From Geminicoccaceae bacterium (GTDB lineage Bacteria > Pseudomonadota > Alphaproteobacteria > Geminicoccales > Geminicoccaceae), in contig JAGRGG010000206.1 in NCBI GenBank assembly GCA_020445645.1, positions 1 through 34,220 on the forward strand: a stretch of 34,220 nt of DNA, read 5' to 3'. The position numbers and the translations under genes were made by a program. Under the pieces are notes generated by a model that was not told the origin of the DNA, searched no databases, and saw nothing but the letters and a program-made list of their open reading frames with translations. This document shows positions 3,370 to 30,060 of this stretch, piece after piece. The first letter of the stretch is position 1. Every line of letters starts with the position of its first letter.

Positions 3370-4311
3370 CTACCTCCGTCCACGGATGAAGGGCCGCATG
3401 AGGGCCTGGGGATAGCTTGCCCGGCGGGAGACCAGGACGAGGGCCACGATGCTCAGAAGGTAGGGGAGCATCAGGAACACCTGATAGGGTATGGCACCGC
3501 CGACGGCCTGCTGGAGGCGGACCTGGAAGGCGTCGAAGGCGCCGAAGAGGAGGGCGCCGAGCAGCGCCTTCGCCGGGTTCCAGCCGCCGAAGACGACGAG
3601 CGCGATGCAGATCCAGCCGCGCCCGTTGACCATCTCGAAGAAGAAGGCGTTGAAGGCGGAAAGCGTGAGGAACGCGCCGCCGACGCCCATGAGCGCGCTG
3701 CCCGCGAGGACGGCGCCCATGCGAAGGGCGTGGACGTGGAGCCCCTGCGCCTCGGCGGCGATGGGGTTCTCGCCGACGGTGCGGACGGCAAGCCCGAGGG
3801 GGGTGCGGTAGAGGAGCCAGACGAGGACGGGGACGAGGGCGAATGCCAGGAAGGTCAGCGCCGTCTGGCCCGCCAGGACGGGGCCGATGCCGGGCACGGC
3901 CTTCAGCCAGGGCCAGTCGACCGGGGGGAAGGGGGCGATGCGGGGCGGGCTCGTCGCGTCGGGGAGGATCACGCGGTAGGCGAAGTAGGTGGTGCTGGTG
4001 GCAAGGAGGGTGATGCCGATCCCGGCGACGTGCTGCGAGAGGCCGAGGGGTATGGTGAGGACGCCGTGGAGGGATCCCAGGAGGAGGCCGGTGAAGGCCG
4101 CGAGCGCCACCCCCGTCCAGAGGTCGGCGCCCATGTGGACGGCGAGCCAGCCGGTCATGGCGCCGGCCGTCATGATCCCCTCGATGCCGAGGTTGAGGAC
4201 GCCCGCCCGCTCGCAGAGGAGTTCGCCCAGCGTGCCGAAGACGAGGGGCGTGGCGATGCGAAATGCCGCGACCCAGAAGCCGGTCTGGAGGAGGATGTCG
4301 AGGAGGTCCAT
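3370..4311 (-). CDS. ABC transporter permease, BMP/nucleoside-type (second permease)
   Basis: This 313-residue multi-pass inner-membrane permease resembles YufQ/NupQ, the shorter of the two permeases in BMP-family (purine or nucleoside) importers. Family hallmarks include ERAGVLNLGIEGIM near residues 34-47, the VRTVGENP segment that contacts the ATPase, and a C-terminal part with FGGWNP. About eight to nine hydrophobic helices are visible. ATG 4311 shares one base with the stop codon of the EamA gene upstream (TGATG), so the two are probably translationally coupled. It should pair with the permease at 5204-6286, but the EamA gene separates them. Confidence 0.9.
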   Translation of the reverse strand: MDLLDILLQTGFWVAAFRIATPLVFGTLGELLCERAGVLNLGIEGIMTAGAMTGWLAVHMGADLWTGVALAAFTGLLLGSLHGVLTIPLGLSQHVAGIGITLLATSTTYFAYRVILPDATSPPRIAPFPPVDWPWLKAVPGIGPVLAGQTALTFLAFALVPVLVWLLYRTPLGLAVRTVGENPIAAEAQGLHVHALRMGAVLAGSALMGVGGAFLTLSAFNAFFFEMVNGRGWICIALVVFGGWNPAKALLGALLFGAFDAFQVRLQQAVGGAIPYQVFLMLPYLLSIVALVLVSRRASYPQALMRPFIRGRR

Positions 4312-5207
4312 CAGGGCGCCCTCGGGCGAAGTTCGGGGCGGCCCCGGCCGCGCTCGAAGAGGAGGAGGCCCGACGCCACGACGACGGCGGCGCCGAACAG
4401 GGTGACGGCGCCGTGCCGCTCGCCGAAGACCAGGGCGCCGAAGACGAGGGCGAAGGGAATGGTGCTGTAGCGGAAGGGGGAGAGGAACGACGCCTCGCCC
4501 AGGCGGTAGGCGGCGACGATGGTGACGTAGGCGAGGGCGATGGCAAGGCTGCTCAAGGTCACGAGGCCGAGGATATGAGGGGGCGGCGCCGTCCAGGCGG
4601 GGGCCAGGGGGGTGAGCGCGCCCAGCGGCAGGGTGGCGAGGCCGACGAGGCCCACGGCGCAGGCCGTCGTCAGCCCCACGGCGGCGGCGTCGAGGCGGGG
4701 GTCGACGTAGCGGGTCATCAGGTCGCGGACCGAGACGAAGACCGCGGCGACGAAGGGGAAGAGGAGGGCGAAGCTCCAGGCGCCCTGGGGCCGGGCGACG
4801 AAGAGGACGCCGACGAAGCCGACGAGGACGGCGGCCCAGCGCCGCCACGACACCCGCTCGCCGAGGCCGAACGCGGCCACGGCGGTCATGATGAGCGGGG
4901 CCGTGAACAGGACGACGGAGCAGACGGCGAGCGGCAGGCGGGCGAGGCCCATGAAGAAGGCGACGGCGGTGGCGGCCTCGCTGAACGCGCGCAGGAGGTT
5001 GAACCGGTCGAGGCAGCCCTGGAGGTTCCCGGCGCGGCGGCGCCAGAGGAGCCAACCGAGGAGGAGGGCGAAGATGATGGCGCCCCGCATGGCGAGGATC
5101 TGCCCCACCGGCATGTGGCGGAGCGCGAGCTTCATCAGCGTGTCGCTCGACGCGAACAGGCCCATCGTGAAGGCGAGGAGGAGGGCGCCGCGGGCGTTGT
5201 CGCTCAC
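4311..5207 (-). CDS. EamA/DMT-family transporter embedded in the ABC operon
   Basis: This 298-residue protein has about ten hydrophobic helices arranged as two EamA repeats. Typical features are the N-terminal SSDTLMKLAL, the MRGAI and LLRAFSEA segments, and a C-terminal GALVFGE followed by a final helix. Members of the drug/metabolite transporter superfamily are secondary carriers for metabolites, amino acids or nucleosides. I chose GTG 5207 because it overlaps the upstream permease stop by four bases (GTGA), and the downstream permease overlaps this gene's stop by one base. It therefore reads as an integral member of the operon, which is unusual for an ABC importer. It could export a product or by-product of the deamination pathway; the substrate is unknown. 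Confidence 0.88.
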   Translation of the reverse strand: MSDNARGALLLAFTMGLFASSDTLMKLALRHMPVGQILAMRGAIIFALLLGWLLWRRRAGNLQGCLDRFNLLRAFSEAATAVAFFMGLARLPLAVCSVVLFTAPLIMTAVAAFGLGERVSWRRWAAVLVGFVGVLFVARPQGAWSFALLFPFVAAVFVSVRDLMTRYVDPRLDAAAVGLTTACAVGLVGLATLPLGALTPLAPAWTAPPPHILGLVTLSSLAIALAYVTIVAAYRLGEASFLSPFRYSTIPFALVFGALVFGERHGAVTLFGAAVVVASGLLLFERGRGRPELRPRAP

Positions 5208-6286
5208 CGGACGGGCCTCAGGCGGACGAGAAGGCCGGCGAGCAGCATGCATAAGAGCGAGAGCGCGACGATGAGGTTGGCCGTGTAGCTGGACACGTCG
5301 AGCGCGCGGCCCATGCTGTCGGCGCCGACGAAGACGGCGGCGACGAAGACGGCGGCGAGGACGACCCCGAGCGGGTTGAGCCGGGCGAGCGTGGCGACGA
5401 CGATCCCGGCGTAGCCGTAGCCCGGCGAGAGGTCGAGGGTGAGGTAGCCCTTGAGCCCGGCCACCTCGACGGCGCCGGCGAGGCCAGCGAGGCCACCCGA
5501 GAGGAAGGCGACGCCCAGGAGCACGCGCCCGGTACGGATGCCGGCGAAGCGGGCGGCGGCGGGGGCCTCCCCGGTCGCGCGGACCTCGAAGCCGAACACG
5601 CTGCCGCGCAGGACGAACCACAGGGCCAGCGCGAGCGCGAGGGCGAGGGGCAGGCCCCAGTGGACGCGGGAACGGGCGAAGAGGCGGGGGAGTTCGGCGG
5701 CTTCCAAAAGCGGCGCGCTCTGCGGCCAGCCGAGGCTCATCGGGTCCTGCATCGGCCCCTCCAGCATCATGCCGACGAAGAGGAGGGCGACGAAGTTGAG
5801 GAGGAGGGTGGTCACGACCTCGTCGACGCCGAAGCGCAGGCGCAGCCACGCGGGGCCGAGCATGAACAGGCCTCCGGCAAAGGCGCTGGCGAGGAGGACG
5901 ACGGCGCAGGCGGTCCAGGGGGGCCACGTATCGAGCGGGAAGAAGCCGGACCCCACGGCGACGGCGGCGAGCGCGCCGAGGTAGAGCTGGCCCTCGGCGC
6001 CGATGTTCCAGAGGCGGGCGCGAAAGGCGATGGCGACGGCGAGGCCGGTGAGGACGAGGGGGGTCGCACGGCTGAGGGTCTCGCCGATGGCGAACGCGCT
6101 GCCGAGGCTGCCCTTCAGGATGAGCGCGTAGGCGTCGAGGATCGGGGCGCCGGCAAGCGCCAGCGGGATCGCCGCGAGGCCCAGCGCCGCGACGACGGCG
6201 ACGAGGGGGGCGAGCGCCGCGAGCAAAGGCGGCGCCGCTTCGCGCCGTTCGAATCGTATCGGCGGCCCGCGCCGCTCAGGCCGCAT
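5204..6286 (-). CDS. ABC transporter permease, BMP/nucleoside-type (first permease)
   Basis: This 360-residue inner-membrane permease resembles YufP/NupP. It has an N-terminal cytoplasmic stretch followed by about ten helices. Family features include ETLSRATPLVLTGLAVA, the FRARLWNIGAEGQ segment, GVDEVVTTLLLNF and the LDLSPGYGYAGI segment near the C-terminus. Its ATG overlaps the end of the ATPase gene by eleven bases, and its stop overlaps the EamA start by four. With the other permease at 3370-4311 it should form the translocation pore of the importer. Confidence 0.92.
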   Translation of the reverse strand: MRPERRGPPIRFERREAAPPLLAALAPLVAVVAALGLAAIPLALAGAPILDAYALILKGSLGSAFAIGETLSRATPLVLTGLAVAIAFRARLWNIGAEGQLYLGALAAVAVGSGFFPLDTWPPWTACAVVLLASAFAGGLFMLGPAWLRLRFGVDEVVTTLLLNFVALLFVGMMLEGPMQDPMSLGWPQSAPLLEAAELPRLFARSRVHWGLPLALALALALWFVLRGSVFGFEVRATGEAPAAARFAGIRTGRVLLGVAFLSGGLAGLAGAVEVAGLKGYLTLDLSPGYGYAGIVVATLARLNPLGVVLAAVFVAAVFVGADSMGRALDVSSYTANLIVALSLLCMLLAGLLVRLRPVR

Positions 6287-7844
6287 CGGCGACCTGCCCG
6301 GTCATCATGAGGCCGAGGCGCCGGAGGGTGGCGGCCTCGCGGGCGAGGGGGCGGCTGAGGCGGCCCCGGTGGATCACGGCGATGCGGTCGGCGAGTTGCA
6401 GCAGCTCGTCCAGGTCCTCGGTGAGGAGGAGGATGCCGGCGCCGCGCGCGCGGGCCTCCAGGAGGCGGCGGTGGATTTCGGCGACGGCGCCGATGTCGAG
6501 GCCGCGCGTCGGCTGGGCGGCCAGGAGGAAGCGGGGCTCGCGGTCGAGGACGCGGGCGAGGATCAGCTTTTGCATGTTGCCGCCGGAAAGCTCGGAGGCC
6601 GGCACGTCGACGCCCCGGCAGCGCACGTCGTGCAGGCGGACGAGGCGCTCGGCGTCGTCGATCAGGTGCCGGCGGCGCAGGAGGCCGAGGCGCTGCGAGG
6701 CGCGCAGGCGCACGGTTTCGATCGCGGCGTTCTCCCAGACGGTCATGGCGCCGACGACGCCCTCGGCGTGGCGGTCCTCGGGCACGCGGCCGACGCCGGC
6801 CCTCGTCAGGTTGAGCGGCCCGCCTTTGGGCCAAGCGACGCCGCGCAGGCGGATCTGCCCCGAATCGGGGACCAGCGTGCCGGAGAGGACGGCAGCAAGG
6901 CTGCGCTGGCCGTTGCCGGCGATCCCGGCGACGCCGAAGATCTCCCCTTCCAGGACCGAGAGCCGCACGTCGTCGAGGGGTTCCCGCCCCGGCGCCGCCC
7001 CGACCCGCACCGCCGACATCTCGACGACGACGGCGCCGGGCTGGCCCCGCAGGCGGGTCGGCGCCTGGACCGGCCGGTCGACCATCGCCTCGGCGAGCTC
7101 GGCCTTCGTCACCCGGTCGGCCGCCGCCTCCCGCACCTTTTGCCCGTGCCGGAGGACGACGACGCGGTCGCAAAGCGCCAGGACCTCGTCGAGCTTGTGG
7201 CTGATGAAGACGACCCCGAGGCCGCGCGACGCGAGGCCGCGCAGCGTGTCGGCGAGGCGCTCGGCCTGCTGGGGGGTGAGGACGGCGGTGGGCTCGTCGA
7301 GGACGAGGACGCGGGCGCCGCGGTAGAGCGCCTTCAGGATCTCGACCCGCTGCCGCTCGCCGACCGAGAGCGCGCCGATGGCGGCGTCCAAGGGCACGTC
7401 GAGCCCGGTCTCGTCGACGAGCGTCCGCAGCCGCCGCCGGGCGTCTCGCCGCCCTTGCCAGGGCCGGAACAGGGGCTCGGTGCCGAGCGTGACGCTCTCG
7501 ATCACGGAGAGGTTGGCGGCGAGCGCGAAGTGCTGGTGGACCATGCCGACCCCCGCCGCCAGCGCCCTTCCGGGCGATCCCCCCGGCAGGGGGCGAAGGC
7601 GGCCCCGCCGGTCGGCGACCAGGATCCGGCCGGAGTCGGCGGCGTAGTGGCCGAACAGGATGTTCATGAGCGTGGTCTTGCCGGCGCCGTTCTCGCCCAG
7701 GAGGCCCAGGATCTCGCCTTGGGCGAGGTCGAGGTCAACGGCGTCGTTGGCGAGGAGGGCGCCGAAACGCTTCGTGACGCCTTCGAGACGCAGGAGGGGG
7801 GACGCGCCGCCCTCCCTCGCGTCCCCGCCCGACGGCTCGATCAC
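6276..7844 (-). CDS. ABC transporter double ATPase, BMP/nucleoside-type
   Basis: This 522-residue protein has two fused nucleotide-binding domains, as in YufO/NupO and sugar-type ABC importers. The first half has a full Walker A (GENGAGKT, residues 50-57), signature LSVGE and Walker B VLVLDEPTA. The second half has the family's usual variant Walker A (GIAGNGQR), signature LSGGN and LAAQPTRGLD, with Q in place of the catalytic E; this degeneracy is normal for the family. I chose GTG 7844 because it overlaps the stop of the binding-protein gene by four bases (GTGA). It would energise uptake of the ligand bound by the adjacent BMP protein. Confidence 0.92.
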   Translation of the reverse strand: MIEPSGGDAREGGASPLLRLEGVTKRFGALLANDAVDLDLAQGEILGLLGENGAGKTTLMNILFGHYAADSGRILVADRRGRLRPLPGGSPGRALAAGVGMVHQHFALAANLSVIESVTLGTEPLFRPWQGRRDARRRLRTLVDETGLDVPLDAAIGALSVGERQRVEILKALYRGARVLVLDEPTAVLTPQQAERLADTLRGLASRGLGVVFISHKLDEVLALCDRVVVLRHGQKVREAAADRVTKAELAEAMVDRPVQAPTRLRGQPGAVVVEMSAVRVGAAPGREPLDDVRLSVLEGEIFGVAGIAGNGQRSLAAVLSGTLVPDSGQIRLRGVAWPKGGPLNLTRAGVGRVPEDRHAEGVVGAMTVWENAAIETVRLRASQRLGLLRRRHLIDDAERLVRLHDVRCRGVDVPASELSGGNMQKLILARVLDREPRFLLAAQPTRGLDIGAVAEIHRRLLEARARGAGILLLTEDLDELLQLADRIAVIHRGRLSRPLAREAATLRRLGLMMTGQVADAA

Positions 7845-14070: not shown

Positions 14071-14874
14071 TCAGCCCTTGAGGCCGAGCACGTCGGCCAT
14101 GCCGTAGAGGCCGGGGGCGCGGCCTTCGGTCCAGCGCGCCGCGCGCACGGCCCCCTTGGCGTAGATGGCGCGGTCGCCCGCCTTGTGGGCGATCTCGATC
14201 CGCTCGCCCGCGCCCGCGAAGACCACCGTGTGGTCGCCGACCACGTCGCCGCCGCGCAGGACGGCGAAGCCGATCCCGCCCTCGGGCCGGGGGCCGGTGT
14301 GCCCGTCGCGCGCCCGGATCGCGGCGCCGGCGAGGTCGATCCCCCTGCCCCGCGCGGCCGCCTCGGCAAGCGCGAGGCCCGTGCCCGAGGGGGCGTCGAC
14401 CTTGTGCCGGTGGTGCATCTCGACGACCTCTATGTCGAACGCGGGGTCGAGCGCCCGCGCCACCCGCTCGACCAGGGCGAGGACGAGGTTGACCCCCTGG
14501 CTCATGTTGGGCGCCCAGACGACGGGCACCCGCCTCGCCGCCGCTTCGAGCGCCGCCCGCCCTCCTTCGTCCAGCCCCGTCGTGCCGACGACGTGGGCGC
14601 ACCCCGCCTCGGCGCACAGGGCCGCGTGGCGCACCGTCGCGTCCGGCGAGGAGAACTCGATCACCGCGTCCGACGCCCCGACGAGCGCCTTCACGTCGCC
14701 GGTCGCCCCGATCCCGATCGGCTCGCCGCCGGCGAGCACGCCGAGGTCCTGCCCCAGAAGCGGGCTGTCCTTCCGCTCGCTGCCGCCCGCAAGCTCCACC
14801 CCCGCCGTCGCCAGCACCTCCTTGAGGTTCGTCCGCCCCATCCGCCCGCCGCAGCCGATGATCCCGATCCGCAT
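14071..14874 (-). CDS. dapB: 4-hydroxy-tetrahydrodipicolinate reductase
   Basis: This cytosolic enzyme of the diaminopimelate/lysine pathway reduces 4-hydroxy-tetrahydrodipicolinate with NAD(P)H. The 267-residue length is normal. Motifs are the dinucleotide-binding GCGGRMGR (7-14) and the catalytic EMHHRHKVDAPSGTG with H154, H155 and K158, the key catalytic residues of DapB. GTTG at 97-100 and the APNMSQGVN stretch are also conserved. ATG 14874 follows GGAGG at five bases; a longer upstream start would add non-conserved residues. It is divergent from the isochorismatase-family gene. Confidence 0.96.
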   Translation of the reverse strand: MRIGIIGCGGRMGRTNLKEVLATAGVELAGGSERKDSPLLGQDLGVLAGGEPIGIGATGDVKALVGASDAVIEFSSPDATVRHAALCAEAGCAHVVGTTGLDEGGRAALEAAARRVPVVWAPNMSQGVNLVLALVERVARALDPAFDIEVVEMHHRHKVDAPSGTGLALAEAAARGRGIDLAGAAIRARDGHTGPRPEGGIGFAVLRGGDVVGDHTVVFAGAGERIEIAHKAGDRAIYAKGAVRAARWTEGRAPGLYGMADVLGLKG

Positions 14875-14965
14875 GGTTTCCTCCGCTCGTCCCGCAACGC
14901 CCTCCTTGTCCCGGATCGACGGCTTAGGCAAGGTGGGGGAACGCGAACCGCGAGGGGGAACGGGG

Positions 14966-15709
14966 ATGGACGAGACGGCGCTGGTCGAGGCGATGCGGTC
15001 GCACCTGCCGATCCGGGTCGCGCCCTACGACATCGGCGCGAAGGCCGCGGGACTCGTCGTCGTCGACGAGGTCGTCGGCTTCTGCGCCGTCGGCGGCGGC
15101 AACCTCGCCCCCACAGCCCCCGACGAACAGGTGCGCCGGATGGTCGAGGAGACCGACCGCCTCGCCCGCCGCTTCGCCGAATACCGCCGCCCGATCCTCG
15201 CCTTCCTCGACACCCACGAGCCCGGCGTCCCCGAGCCCCCCTACCCGCCGCACTGCGAGCGGGGCACGGGCGAGGAGGACCTCGTACCGGAACTGCGCTG
15301 GCTCGAGGACTGCAACGAGGCGACGCTGATCCGCAAGGACTGCATCAACGGCTTCGTCGGCGCGATCGAGGCCGCCTACAGGGGCCACGGCCTCAGCCAC
15401 AACAAGGCCGTCGACTGGGTGAACCGCCACCGCCTCGAATCCGTCCTTGTCACCGGCATCTGCACCGACGTCTGCGTCATGGACTTCGTGCTGACCCTGC
15501 TCTCGGCCCGCAACCACCGGCTGATGCCGACGCTCAAGGACATCGTCGTCGTCGAGCCCGCCACCGCCACCTACGACCTGCCGCAAGCGGCGGCGGCGGG
15601 CCTCGGCCTGCCCGAGACAGCGAGCCACCCGAAGGCGCCCACGCACCACATGGGCCTCTACTTCATGGCCTCGCGGGGGGCGGTGCTGGCGGATCACATT
15701 ATTGTTTAA
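14966..15709 (+). CDS. isochorismatase-family cysteine hydrolase (nicotinamidase-like)
   Basis: This 247-residue cytosolic hydrolase has the isochorismatase/nicotinamidase triad: D34 in VVVDEV, K124 in LIRKDCINGF and C170 in GICTDVCV. Metal-type residues D82 and H84 (LDTHEPG) and H96 (PPHCERGTG) point to nicotinamidase-like amide hydrolysis. ATG 14966 follows GAGGGGG. The last codons (HIIV and stop) switch abruptly to AT-rich DNA that continues into the next gene, so the native 3' end may have been altered by an insertion. Confidence 0.82.
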   Translation: MDETALVEAMRSHLPIRVAPYDIGAKAAGLVVVDEVVGFCAVGGGNLAPTAPDEQVRRMVEETDRLARRFAEYRRPILAFLDTHEPGVPEPPYPPHCERGTGEEDLVPELRWLEDCNEATLIRKDCINGFVGAIEAAYRGHGLSHNKAVDWVNRHRLESVLVTGICTDVCVMDFVLTLLSARNHRLMPTLKDIVVVEPATATYDLPQAAAAGLGLPETASHPKAPTHHMGLYFMASRGAVLADHIIV

Positions 15710-15735
15710 ATAGAACATTCAAAGGCGCAATTCTA

Positions 15736-16413
15736 ATGTCAGAAATCTCAAGAAAATTGGATATAACTTGTAATCAATGCAATACAAGATTTATTGCTGA
15801 TGTTTATGAAGGACGAACAATATACTTAGGGGAAGATCAATATCCCAATTTGTCCTTTAGCTTAATTCAATGCTCAACATGTAATATACCATTGCTGGTC
15901 GAGCAAGATGTTGAATATGATCTTGATCGAATTGGACATGGCCCAGCAAAATTAATATTTCCAATAACAAGATTTAATATAGATACAGCTATTCCTAAGT
16001 TTATAAAGGTAGCACTTGAAGAAGCCATTATTTGCTACAGAGCAAAAGCATACACAGCAAGCGCCATCATGTGCAGAAAAGTGTTAGAAGGCGTATGTAA
16101 TCACTTCAATATGAAAGGTGGTTCTTTAGCAGACAGGCTAAGAAAAATGAGAAGCGACGGAATTATTGATAATACATTAACAGAATGGTCAGAAGTGCTT
16201 AAAGCAGCTGGCAATGAAGCAGCTCATGATGTGCAGATGCAGGTAAATCATAATGATGCCAAGGATTTACTCGAATTTGCTATTGCAATAAATGATTATT
16301 TGTTTTCATTTAGAAAAAAATTCGAGTCTTTTAAAGCGAGAATAAGTAAAAGGCAGATATCTTCTGATAAGCAAGAAAGTATCAAAAAGGCAGAATCTGC
16401 GGAGGGAGTTTAG
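15736..16413 (+). CDS. DUF4145 protein with zinc-ribbon, AT-rich and probably acquired
   Basis: This 225-residue protein starts with a four-cysteine zinc-ribbon (C12, C15, C46, C49). It is followed by a DUF4145-type helical domain (about 85-200) with KVALEEAIICYRAKAY, CRKVLEGVC and a final AGNEAAHD motif. DUF4145 proteins occur alone or fused to restriction and other defence proteins; a molecular function is not established. The codons are strikingly A/T-rich compared with every neighbour, which indicates recent transfer. ATG 15736 is 26 bases after the isochorismatase stop; no strong ribosome-binding site is visible. The stop codon lies inside the loop of a terminator hairpin. Confidence 0.8.
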   Translation: MSEISRKLDITCNQCNTRFIADVYEGRTIYLGEDQYPNLSFSLIQCSTCNIPLLVEQDVEYDLDRIGHGPAKLIFPITRFNIDTAIPKFIKVALEEAIICYRAKAYTASAIMCRKVLEGVCNHFNMKGGSLADRLRKMRSDGIIDNTLTEWSEVLKAAGNEAAHDVQMQVNHNDAKDLLEFAIAINDYLFSFRKKFESFKARISKRQISSDKQESIKKAESAEGV

Positions 16414-16430
16414 CCTCCCTCCGCATTTTG
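16399..16430 (+). terminator. intrinsic terminator of the DUF4145 gene
   Basis: A perfect ten-base-pair stem (TGCGGAGGGA paired with TCCCTCCGCA) encloses the stop codon in its loop and is followed by TTTT. It lies between the convergent DUF4145 gene and acsA. Confidence 0.8.
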
Positions 16431-16435
16431 ATGTG

Positions 16436-18370
16436 CTATGCCGCCCCCCGCCGGTTCGCCACCAGATCGTCGACTACCCCCGGATCGGCGAGCGTCGAGG
16501 TATCTCCCAACTGGTCCTGCTCCTCGGCCGCGATCTTGCGCAGGATCCGGCGCATGATCTTGCCGGAGCGGGTCTTGGGCAGGCCCGGCGCGAACTGGAT
16601 GAAGTCGGGGGACGCGATCGGGCCGATCTCGTCGCGGACGTGCTTGACCAGCTCCTTCTTGAGGTCGTCGGAGGGCTCGAAGCCCTGGGTCAGGGTCACG
16701 TAGCAGTAGATGCCCTGGCCCTTGATGTCGTGGGGGAACCCGACGACGGCGGCCTCGGCGACGGCGGGGTGCAGGACGAGGGCGCTTTCCACCTCGGCCG
16801 TGCCCATGCGGTGCCCGGAGACGTTGATCACGTCGTCGACCCGGCCCGTGATCCAGTAGTAGCCGTCCCCGTCGCGCCTCGCGCCGTCGCCGGTGACGTA
16901 GGCGGCGCCGAAGGTGCCGAAGTAGGTCTGCACGAAGCGCTTGTGGTCGCCGTAGATCGTGCGCATCTGCCCCGGCCAGCTGTCGAGGATGACCAGGTTG
17001 CCCTCGGCGGCGCCTTCGAGGCGGTTGCCGTCGTTGTCGACGATGGCGGGCTGGACCCCGAAGAAGGGTAGCGTCGCCGAGCCGGGCTTCAGGGCGGTGG
17101 CGCCCGGCAAGGGGGTGATGAGGATCCCGCCCGTCTCGGTCTGCCACCACGTATCGACGACGGGGCAGCGGCCCTCGCCTACGACATCGAAGTACCAGCG
17201 CCACGCCTCGGGGTTGATCGGCTCGCCAACCGAGCCCAGGACGCGCAAGGAGGCCCGCGACGTGCCCTTCACCGGCCCGTCGCCCTTTTGCATGAGCGCC
17301 CGGATCGCCGTCGGCGCCGTGTAGAAGATCGTCACCTTGTGCTTGTCGACGACCTCCCAGAAGCGGGACACGGTCGGGTAGTTCGGCACGCCCTCGAACA
17401 TGAGCGAGCGGGCGCCGTTGGCGAGCGGGCCGTAGACGATGTAGCTGTGGCCCGTGACCCAGCCCACGTCGGCGGTGCACCAGTAGACGTCGTCCTCCTG
17501 GAGGTCGAAGACGTAGTAGTGCGTCATCGCGGCGAACAGCAGGTAGCCGGCCGTGGTGTGGAGGACGCCCTTCGGCTTGCCGGTCGAGCCCGAGGTGTAG
17601 AGGATGAAGAGGGGGTCTTCCGCGTTCATCCGCTCGGGGGGGCAGTCGGCGTCGGCCCCGGCCATCAGGGCTTCGAGGTCGTGGTCCCGCCCCTCTTGCA
17701 TGGCGACCCCGCCCCTCGTGTGCGGCCAGCAGAGGACGGGGACGTCCTTGCCCGCCCGTTCCAGCGCCCGGTCGACGTTCGCCTTCAAGGGCACCTTGCG
17801 CCCGCCGCGCAGCCCCTCGTCCGCCGTGATGACGAGGGTGGCGTCGCTGTCGACGATCCGGTCCTTCAGGGCGTCCGGCGAGAATCCCCCGAAGACGATC
17901 GAGTGGACCGCGCCGATCCGGGCGCAGGCGAGCATGGCGTAGGCGGAGACGGGGATCATCGGCAGGTAGATGATGACCCGGTCGCCTTTCTTGACGCCCT
18001 GGGCCTTCAGGACGTTGGCGAGCCGGCAGACCCGCTCGTGCAATTGCCGGTAGGTGATCGTCGCGTCCTGCGCGGGGTCGTCGCCCTCCCAGATGATCGC
18101 CGCCTGGTCGCCGCGCTCGTCGAGGTGGCGGTCGACGCAGTTGACGCAGACGTTGAGTTCGCCGTCCTCGAACCATTTGATCGACACGTCGCCCGAGAAC
18201 GAGGTGTTCTTGATCTTCGTCGGCGCCTTCATCCAGTCGAGCCGCTTCGCCTGCTCGCCCCAGAACCCCTCCGGGTCCTCGACTGAACGCCTGTAGAGGC
18301 GCTGGTACCCTTCCTTGTCGACGTGCGCCGCCTTGGCCAGCGCGTTCGGAACCGGGTAGACCTGATCCAT
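16436..18370 (-). CDS. acsA: acetyl-CoA synthetase
   Basis: This 644-residue AMP-forming acetate-CoA ligase makes acetyl-CoA from acetate, ATP and CoA in the cytosol. Motifs are the P-loop-like [11 protein letters not shown] (A3), TWWQTETGG (A5), [17 protein letters not shown] (A8) and [11 protein letters not shown] near the C-terminus, whose lysine (A10) is the usual acetylation site. The N-terminal [11 protein letters not shown] is typical. ATG 18370 follows GAGGGAGGG. The 5' gap to tesA holds unusual palindromes that may be regulatory. Confidence 0.97.
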
Positions 18371-18461
18371 GCTCGTTGCCCTCCCTCGAACGGTCACGAC
18401 GTGGTCGCATGGAAGCGGGGCGGGCTCAACGATTCAAGGACGTTTTGCCGCAAAACCGGGG

Positions 18462-28606: not shown

Positions 28607-28872
28607 GCACAGCCCGTGCCCAGAGGGTTCACCCCTTGGTACGGCAGGCCGAAGGTCACTCCCGTTCGAGAGGATGTAGGCATGGCCGACGCTCATGACG
28701 GACGTATCGCGGCGCATTTTTGTCGCTTTCGCGCCTCGGTAGGATTCAAGGGTTTAGGAGGAGGTTATTTGGGGCGACAAACCAACCGTTTTTGAACGAG
28801 GGATTTTGTCCAAAGAGTTTACGTCTGTCAGCGCTCTGACTACAATCACTCTACGCTACAAGGGGTAGAGAA
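28607..28872. other. 266-base transition into AT-rich DNA, no gene seen
   Basis: The GC-rich composition of the phytase-like gene gives way at about 28690 to AT-rich sequence that continues to about 29720. I see no gene, tRNA or terminator. A TTTAGGAGGAGG stretch resembles a ribosome-binding site but has no open frame after it. Confidence 0.4.
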
Positions 28873-29578
28873 TTGACTATTTCAAATAGCGAGCTTGATG
28901 TCATGGGATTGGAAAGATTGCTCAAGCCATTCCAGAGGTGGGGTGGAAGAAAGCAAATGATACCGCCTGTGAAACATTTTCCGACTTAATATCACCAATT
29001 ACGAAAACGACCGCAGGATCCAGAGGACTTGTTCAGGCTAAGTTTGGATGTACAAAAGATTTTTGCCGCCGATGCTGTTCAGCGTGCTCGACTGAAAATT
29101 CAGTATGTTTCTGCGCCGAAAAGGATTCCGCCATCGGCACGGAGATTAGTTTCCGCGATTGAGGAAGCATCCGTTGAAAGTGATGAAAACCTCAGGGATA
29201 TTTGGGCTAATTTGATTGCAAACGAGATGTCTGTTGGCGGCGTGCATCCTGAATTTCCAAGAATTCTGTCACGTCTAAGCACACAAGGACGCACTTGTAT
29301 TGTCTACGATTGCTGAACAGCATTCGATGGCGAGCATTAGAACTTATGCTGCAGAATTCACTAAAATTTTGGAGGCATCAATCCCCGGCATAGGGGTCAC
29401 CATTTCTGCCTTATTAGGGCAAGCGGTAATCAAAAGGACTGACGCACACCATGAACAGCTTGAGCGACTAGCTTTGATTTGGAAAAACAATACTTTCTGG
29501 AGCCTAATTTACTTCGGAGAAAAATTTGTAGCTGCGGTTACTAACTTATCCATTGCAACTGACCAAACATTCTCCTAA
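28873..29578 (+). pseudogene. DUF4393 (Abi-alpha-like) gene broken by three frameshifts
   Basis: Joining three frame changes restores a protein of about 235 residues with the DUF4393 pattern: ISNSELDVMG, IGKIAQAIPEVGWKKAND, SDLISPITKTTAG, QAKFDVQKIFAADAVQRA, IPPSARRLVSAIEEAS, IWANLIANEMS, HPEFPRILSRLS, then QDALVLSTIAEQH and a C-terminal YFGEKFVAAVT. DUF4393 includes the phage-resistance protein Abi-alpha. The shifts are one missing base in GGG at 28905-28907, one extra G at 29046-29047 and one extra G at 29287-29288. The likely start is TTG 28873 after AAGGGG. AT-rich composition suggests transfer. All three indels fall in short G runs, so sequencing error is a real alternative to decay. Confidence 0.75.
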
Positions 29579-29598
29579 GGCCAAATCTTAAATCCATA

Positions 29599-29629
29599 AA
29601 TCTCTTTTACGAGCGGAGATTAGATTTTT
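29599..29629 (+). terminator. weak terminator-like hairpin after the DUF4393 pseudogene
   Basis: AATCTC and GAGATT pair over six bases around an 11-base loop, with TTTTT a few bases later. The stem is short, so the call is weak. Confidence 0.3.
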
Positions 29630-29730
29630 GCCCAGCCAAACTACCTTGCTCGGCCTTTGCAGACGTGCCGCTCTACCCTGAATTTCCAACGGCTTTTGTG
29701 AAATGTCGCAATCTCCCCACCTCAACCCGA

Positions 29731-30060
29731 CTACCCCCGAAACGCCCCCATCAGAACCTCCCGCATATCGGGCTCCAGCGTGAAGGCGAGCCGCAGCCCC
29801 TCGGGGCCGATTCCGACGACGCGGCCCCTGAGCCCCTGCGGGTGGCCGAGGTCCCGCCACCAGAGGAGGACGCGGCGCCCCGGCAGCCCCGCGGGCCAAG
29901 CGTCTCGCGGTGCCAGGAGAGCGCCCTCCAGCCCGAGGGCGGTGAGCGACGCCGGGACGGTGCCGTCGCAGAAGCGAAGCTCCGCCCGCCGCCCCTTGCG
30001 GAAGCGAAGGCAAAAGCGCCCCTTGAGCGGCGTTTCGGCGTCGACGAGTTGGATCTGCAC
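29731..30060 (-). CDS. small PilZ-like protein
   Basis: This 109-residue protein has the beta-strand pattern of PilZ-type domains: CDGTVPASLTALGLEGALL, LPGRRVLLWWRDLG and a strand ending GRVVGIGPEGLRLAF. The RxxxR c-di-GMP-binding motif is not clear, so nucleotide binding is uncertain. GTG 30060 follows GGGAG at five bases. It is divergent from yebC. I treat the family assignment as a suggestion only. Confidence 0.5.
   Translation of the reverse strand: MQIQLVDAETPLKGRFCLRFRKGRRAELRFCDGTVPASLTALGLEGALLAPRDAWPAGLPGRRVLLWWRDLGHPQGLRGRVVGIGPEGLRLAFTLEPDMREVLMGAFRG

Follow-up and report, generated by a model that had tools for sequence, protein, structure and literature searches.

Described DUF4145 and HEPN proteins

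The extract of Anantharaman et al. 2013 (PMC3710099) on which we draw places DUF4145 in the HEPN superfamily, gives Rx4-6H as the HEPN motif, puts the share of DUF4145 members that conserve it at 80%, and lists both zinc-ribbon fusions of DUF4145 and HEPN families that are without the motif Arg. PD-T7-4 is a single-gene anti-phage system of E. coli in the portion of PMC9519451 used here, and we infer that PD-T7-4 is meant by item (7) of that portion, a zinc-finger-like domain fused to a ribonuclease-family domain. BxaP is presented in the extract of PMC10799925 as a DUF4145-containing, BREX-associated protein with tested phage protection.

The window, i.e., the whole stretch of 34,220 nt that was analysed, is one complete contig; the genome assembly is fragmented (3.78 Mb, 291 contigs) and 95.8% complete, with an estimated contamination of 1.41%. 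The window carries an AT-rich segment with a gene whose protein, encoded at 15736-16413, is termed P0002. The features of the locus are as follows.

14071..14931, minus strand (putative start): dapB, native divergent neighbour of iso (PF05173, PF01113)
14966..15709, plus strand: iso, native isochorismatase-family hydrolase (PF00857, 56.3 bits), with its last 2-4 codons at the left junction
15693..16398, no strand: AT-rich inserted segment, best composition fit, with the true right edge between 16398 and ~16435
15736..16413, plus strand: inserted gene (P0002), an intact open reading frame of 225 aa, zinc ribbon plus DUF4145/HEPN
15769..15882, plus strand: four-cysteine zinc-ribbon-like region (C12, C15, C46, C49), two CxxC pairs at residues 12-15 and 46-49 of the translation
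16033..16278, plus strand: DUF4145 match with predicted HEPN fold, residues 100-181 (PF13643, 57.4 bits against a curated cut-off of 23.1)
16210..16227, plus strand: GNEAAH motif, residues 159-164, His kept and Gly at the canonical HEPN Arg position
16398..16425, no strand: perfect 11-bp hairpin followed by TTTT, terminator-like, overlapping the 3′ end of the inserted gene
16436..18397, minus strand: acs, acetyl-CoA synthetase, native convergent neighbour (PF00501, PF13193, PF16177)

P0002 is like the DUF4145 (PF13643) branch of HEPN proteins in its above-threshold domain match and in its predicted HEPN fold, but differs in having Gly for the motif Arg, and Lys at a position where all nine aligned relatives have Arg. 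HEPN toxins of the HepT and AbiV types have the HEPN fold in common with P0002 in the structure comparison; unlike them, P0002 has an N-terminal zinc-ribbon-like region, and its insert has no room for a partner gene. BxaP, in the extract cited above, is similar in its DUF4145 domain, and its phage protection has been tested; it differs in that this domain is N-terminal, that a weak HEAT-like match lies at the C-terminus, and that the context is BREX.

PD-T7-4 is the best PADLOC match of P0002 and covers residues 10-198, but the score is 27.4 bits. Strong PD-T7-4 matches have CxxC pairs ahead of the DUF4145 part, a layout similar to that of P0002. In a scan of 398 Pseudomonadota genomes the PD-T7-4 model found eight loci at 165-296 bits, all of them aligned to 170 or more of the 211 model positions, and six weaker loci at 45-74 bits; P0002 gave no match to the model at E <= 1e-8 in that scan. 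A tree built from 34 proteins sets the seven PD-T7-4-like rows apart on a branch of their own (support 99/98). The P0002 group is separated from the other labelled rows by one change with modest support (86/79), and it includes some unlabelled rows and a Balneolaceae member on a long branch. Identity of P0002 with PD-T7-4 was rejected on the difference in score, 27 bits against 165-296, and on the separate tree branch. P0002 may nevertheless work like PD-T7-4.

Composition of the AT-rich segment

The bulk of the window has about 71% GC, whereas GC between iso and acs is about 0.35. In bins of 40 nt, the left step is from 0.68 (15661-15700) to 0.30 (15701-15740), and on the right side GC is back to 0.68 at 16421-16460. 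A two-state composition fit has its optimum at 15693-16398, with a log-likelihood gain of 129 over one state. GC at third codon positions is 0.26 in the inserted gene, compared with 0.94 in iso, 0.95 in acs and 0.95 in dapB, and nine of the 13 Arg codons of the inserted gene are AGA, with CGC, CGG and CGT absent. Thus the abrupt change to AT-rich composition at the end of iso, proposed in the first-pass annotation, is real by the 40-nt bins, the two-state fit and the third codon positions. The same annotation had the composition reverting after a terminator. The return to host GC is confirmed, but the break falls at the start of the hairpin and not past the terminator.

The insertion site in relatives

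Genes matching iso at 62-78% identity are found in 26 of 30 other genomes of the same family, the match in one of them (G006) being partial at a contig end. A divergent dapB lies beside iso at 15 of the 29 iso loci of relatives, as counted in the fetched stretches, some of which stop at contig ends. The gene acs lies within the fetched stretch at two of the 29 loci, in genomes G013 and G015, and the uninterrupted pair is found in one. In G013 the order is that of the window, with iso between divergent dapB and convergent acs, and only 27 nt separate the iso and acs stop codons, compared with 726 nt in the window; the G013 iso is 63% identical to that of the window. In G015 (locus L025) acs is also convergent but about 1 kb from iso, with one other gene in between. 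The genome nearest by iso (G002, 78% identity) has no acs in the 8.4 kb fetched. From one relative, G013, we infer that the short iso-acs gap is ancestral here. Up to 700 nt 3′ of iso, the 29 loci of relatives have GC of 0.56-0.76, as against 0.35 in the window.

It had been proposed that iso acquired a new C-terminus from the insertion. The tail of iso past the conserved RGAxxA block has 5 residues in the window, and 4-9 residues at all 29 loci of relatives. The tail thus lies within the range of the relatives, so no meaningful new C-terminus was acquired, and iso is unchanged up to its short variable tail. A changed iso C-terminus was therefore rejected.

An assembly artefact should also be considered, by which an AT-rich fragment of another organism would have been joined into a contig of metagenome type; the number of contigs and the estimated contamination of the genome give some room for it. 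Against it, two false joins would be needed at the same place, both flanks run on as native genes in the G013 order, and other AT-rich islands lie in GC-rich contigs of the same genome (window ~28.7-29.7 kb, L002, L093 and L095). We regard such an artefact as highly improbable.

Edges of the insert and expression signals

The hairpin at 16398-16425 has a folding energy of -24.8 kcal/mol (z -5.8 against shuffles); in the terminator scan 1.4 terminator-like sites are expected by chance in the region of the hairpin. Its core, with arms of 8 nt, has no second exact copy in the genome. Because the composition break falls at the hairpin start, the host may be the source of the hairpin, and with it of the final four or five codons of the inserted gene. 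The hairpin may equally have arrived together with the gene.

No direct repeats of 9 nt or more span the two junctions. A target-site duplication of at least 9 nt was thus rejected, shorter repeats being below the limit of the test. A perfect 11-nt inverted repeat does flank the insert, at 15673-15683 and 16441-16451 (GCGGGGGGCGG and CCGCCCCCCGC). Both arms are host codons, of iso and of acs, and the repeat is only mildly unusual, as 0.65% of 4000 GC-rich flank pairs of the window reach 11 nt. It was therefore set aside as an element end. No terminal repeats belonging to the insert, and no recombinase beside it, were found. End joining of the Ku type was rejected, since a Ku match is absent from the genome.

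The start codon of the inserted gene is 26 nt past the iso stop, and a search of 15400-16700 with the sigma-70 consensus gave no promoter match on the plus strand. Read-through is the simplest guess on these two grounds; expression would most likely be by read-through from iso, ending at the hairpin.

The first-pass annotation had described the gene as a compact transfer unit with a terminator of its own. This description is unsupported, since the insert shows neither element ends nor a long target duplication, has no recombinase at its side and gave no complete attC; the terminator itself may belong to the host.

The inserted protein

The architecture of a zinc ribbon followed by DUF4145, which had been read from the translation, is borne out by the two CxxC pairs and by the DUF4145 match above its cut-off; none of the Pfam zinc-ribbon models reaches cut-off on P0002. 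Both CxxC pairs are present in five of eight aligned relatives. The relative at locus L089 has one CxxC and one Cx4C, and those at L082 and L083 are missing the first pair and look shortened.

A structure model of P0002, built from nine aligned sequences, is of moderate confidence (mean pLDDT 79.8, pTM 0.56). In a Foldseek search of the PDB with this model, ranks 1-29 are HEPN or HEPN-family entries with probabilities of 0.89-1.00, all with E-values above 0.001. Among these entries are 2hsb, at probability 1.00, and 7bxo and 5yep, which we take to be HEPN entries. Alignment to 2hsb with VIA-align gave Z 15.5 and rmsd 2.7 over 112 aligned positions, just over the level that the tool names as chance for helical bundles. 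HepT, AbiV, HepS, sacsin and Csm6 rank below 2hsb in the structural comparison. A search of solved structures with the P0002 sequence returned nothing relevant. The model supports a predicted HEPN fold for the inserted protein.

The catalytic motif Rx4-6H is not intact in P0002, where the corresponding stretch is G159-N160-x3-H164, with the His present and the Arg absent. Gly is found at the catalytic Arg position in P0002 and in all aligned relatives of its set, and the motif of the set is G-N-E-A-A-H or near, His, Asn and Glu being invariant in the nine aligned proteins. Three residues before the motif Gly, the nine aligned relatives have Arg and P0002 has Lys156. Another relative, at locus L068, has the canonical R-N-L-V-A-H at the same position. 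As HEPN families without the Arg are listed in the extract of PMC3710099, its loss argues against a standard active site and not against the fold. With Gly for the canonical catalytic Arg, ribonuclease activity of P0002 is only putative.

These residues bear on an alternative in which the gene was acquired horizontally but does not serve defence, being instead a nucleic-acid-binding regulator of phage or plasmid origin with a catalytically dead HEPN domain. The Gly shared by P0002 and all its aligned relatives is consistent with this, as is the best PHROG match of P0002, phrog_1305 at 91 bits, which is labelled 'DNA binding protein'; related genes sit in Lactobacillus phage KC5a and Virgibacillus phage Mimir87 with ordinary genes around them. 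However, the invariant His, Asn and Glu suggest an active site that is kept, three relatives lie beside strong defence genes (see below), and the strong PD-T7-4 matches share a similar layout of CxxC pairs and DUF4145. A dead regulator is therefore a possible but rather doubtful reading of the gene.

Distribution and relatives of P0002

In the set of related genomes, one of 59 others has a match to P0002 at E <= 0.001, and this match is weak (E 5e-4); it is also the count for the same family, one weak match (E 5e-4) in 30 other genomes. In a sample of the class, one of 384 other genomes matches at E <= 1e-8, with 29% identity and an internal stop. These two sample matches have 28-29% identity to P0002.

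A collection of genome contigs, one genome for each of 84,980 species, gave no relative when scanned with P0002 alone. A further scan, for which patterns shared by P0002 and a copy from Azospirillum served as query, gave at least nine loci at 28-46% identity, in Terriglobia, Thiobacillus, three Pseudomonas, Acidimicrobiia, Polaromonas, Alcaligenes (broken) and Balneolaceae. Nine is a lower bound, as the scan depends on two short peptide patterns. The relatives at 28-46% identity are thus scattered over several phyla. Neither P0002 nor A3 gave a relative when run against viral contigs.

In the plasmid collection P0002 matched one record, from Azospirillum lipoferum, at 37% identity over 76% of its length. 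This plasmid copy is frameshifted, has 0.38 GC in surroundings of 0.70 GC, and is preceded by a recombinase gene and followed by an IS5 transposase. It is sister to P0002 in the tree (support 92/88, on a long branch). When the L085 protein was the query, four actinobacterial plasmids matched as well, at 28-32% identity.

The phrog_1305 family is present in 39 of 398 Pseudomonadota genomes, the present genome included, with 45 matches. Of these, 30 loci were examined, and 27 have lower GC than their flanks, the mean difference being -0.06. Such common AT-richness would fit an old vertical trait of the lineage whose low GC was simply kept. Yet the drop at the window insert, about 0.36, is larger than that at any of the 30 phrog_1305 loci (maximum 0.18), a single same-family genome has a match, and the iso-acs site of G013 is uninterrupted. 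Relatives with the same gene at low GC, as a vertical trait, would have counted against the first-pass reading; among the 30 genomes there is just the one weak match. Vertical inheritance was rejected on the near-absence in the family and the short iso-acs gap in G013, and we give it a negligible probability.

Because of the 27-nt gap in G013 and the one weak match among 30 same-family genomes, the inserted gene is, as judged from sequence comparison, horizontally acquired. The foreign origin proposed for the AT-rich gene in the first-pass annotation is borne out by its composition, its sporadic distribution and the short gap in G013.

Neighbourhoods of relatives

Ten chosen neighbours from six loci of relatives (L081, L082, L084, L085, L086 and L089; L083 and L087 were left out) were scanned with PADLOC. 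Strong defence neighbours are present at three of the six. At L086 they are GajA (653 bits) and a type II restriction-modification pair (restriction enzyme 247 bits, methylase 189 bits), at L089 AbiU (162 bits), and at L084 a C5 methylase (251 bits). At L081 the match, to CapP, is weak (41 bits), and the scanned neighbours at L082 and L085 have no PADLOC match. Among 10 proteins of the window, scanned as a control, PADLOC matches only an HhH-GPD glycosylase (61 bits) and an ABC ATPase (98 bits). As housekeeping proteins reach 98 bits in this control, matches below about 100 bits, such as that to CapP, are uninformative. No defence island surrounds the inserted gene, only such housekeeping look-alikes matching among these 10 nearby window proteins. 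The expectation that DUF4145 genes lie near defence genes thus holds at three of the six scanned loci of relatives but fails around the window gene itself.

At L082, in a Thiobacillus metagenome-assembled genome, the shortened relative comes second in the row of genes that follows an integron integrase (TIGR02249, 393 bits, cut-off 265). The stretch at 4215-6519 of this locus has the integrase, one cassette-like gene, and then the relative, which ends in GCCTAAC at its stop codon. An apparent attC there seems to be split by a long palindrome. The core consensus of attC is RYYYAAC. By reading and without a chance control, RYYYAAC was found at the stop codon or within 10 nt of it in four of the eight relatives with a complete 3′ end, three of the four being close to each other. 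Because of the position of L082 after the integrase and the RYYYAAC motifs at stop codons, some members of the set may have been transferred as integron cassettes.

The window gene could likewise be a gene cassette that entered at a secondary site and whose attC has since decayed. Both observations on relatives agree with this, and the inserted gene stands alone, with a short leader and no clear promoter. Against it, neither a complete attC nor an attC core was found at either window junction, a weak negative because the strict scan also missed L082, near an integron integrase. The hairpin at 16398-16425 is without attC boxes, and the genome, at its level of completeness, has no match to the integron integrase model PF13495 at E <= 0.001. 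A decayed cassette is an unlikely origin for the insert.

Proposed explanation

We consider it reasonably likely that a single AT-rich gene was transferred horizontally into the iso-acs gap by illegitimate insertion, and that it encodes a stand-alone zinc-ribbon HEPN protein acting as a one-gene anti-phage protein. The inserted gene is probably a defence gene. Its landing place would be the gap that separates the converging core genes iso and acs, where no more than the variable end of iso would have been cut back or exchanged; illegitimate recombination of a short fragment is the most likely route. Infection would be stopped in two steps: the zinc ribbon would recognise a nucleic acid or a ligand triggered by phage, after which RNA would be cut or bound by the HEPN domain, probably in dimeric form.

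More tentatively, P0002 and its relatives might be an undescribed, phylum-crossing clade of one-gene defence proteins, in which a zinc ribbon is joined to a GNEAAH-type HEPN domain without the canonical Arg, and which would move as a bare gene and partly in integron cassettes. RNA could be cut in such proteins by the shifted Arg or Lys, or the domain could act as a non-catalytic, RNA-binding block.

As a case of defence-gene transfer the locus is sound, though fairly ordinary. It clearly illustrates how one defence-type gene can enter a GC-rich genome with no mobile element in sight, and it provides a coherent group of relatives in which to ask whether DUF4145 proteins with Gly for Arg still protect against phage.

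Other AT-rich islands in the same genome

A second AT-rich island of the window, at 28626-29800 with GC of about 0.48, has a phytase-like esterase gene on one side and a short minus-strand gene on the other. It contains an apparently broken gene, one frame of which matches Abi_alpha (PF14337, 51 bits) and PADLOC PDC-S47. This is probably a decayed defence gene.

Another contig of the genome (C151, locus L002, ~1360-2150) has an AT-rich island with a DUF4145 gene that is interrupted by internal stops and belongs to another subfamily, of the LRKLGNIGAH type. It adjoins an antitoxin-like gene and a rimO-like gene, both named by reading of their translations. In about 205 kb of unmasked contigs of the genome, sampled by number, AT-rich single-gene islands were seen at 1473-2198 of L095, with an orphan protein of 242 aa, and at 1715-2287 of L093, with a pentapeptide-repeat protein; the sample also has a further, marginal island at L074. 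AT-rich genes standing alone seem to be a recurrent feature of this genome.
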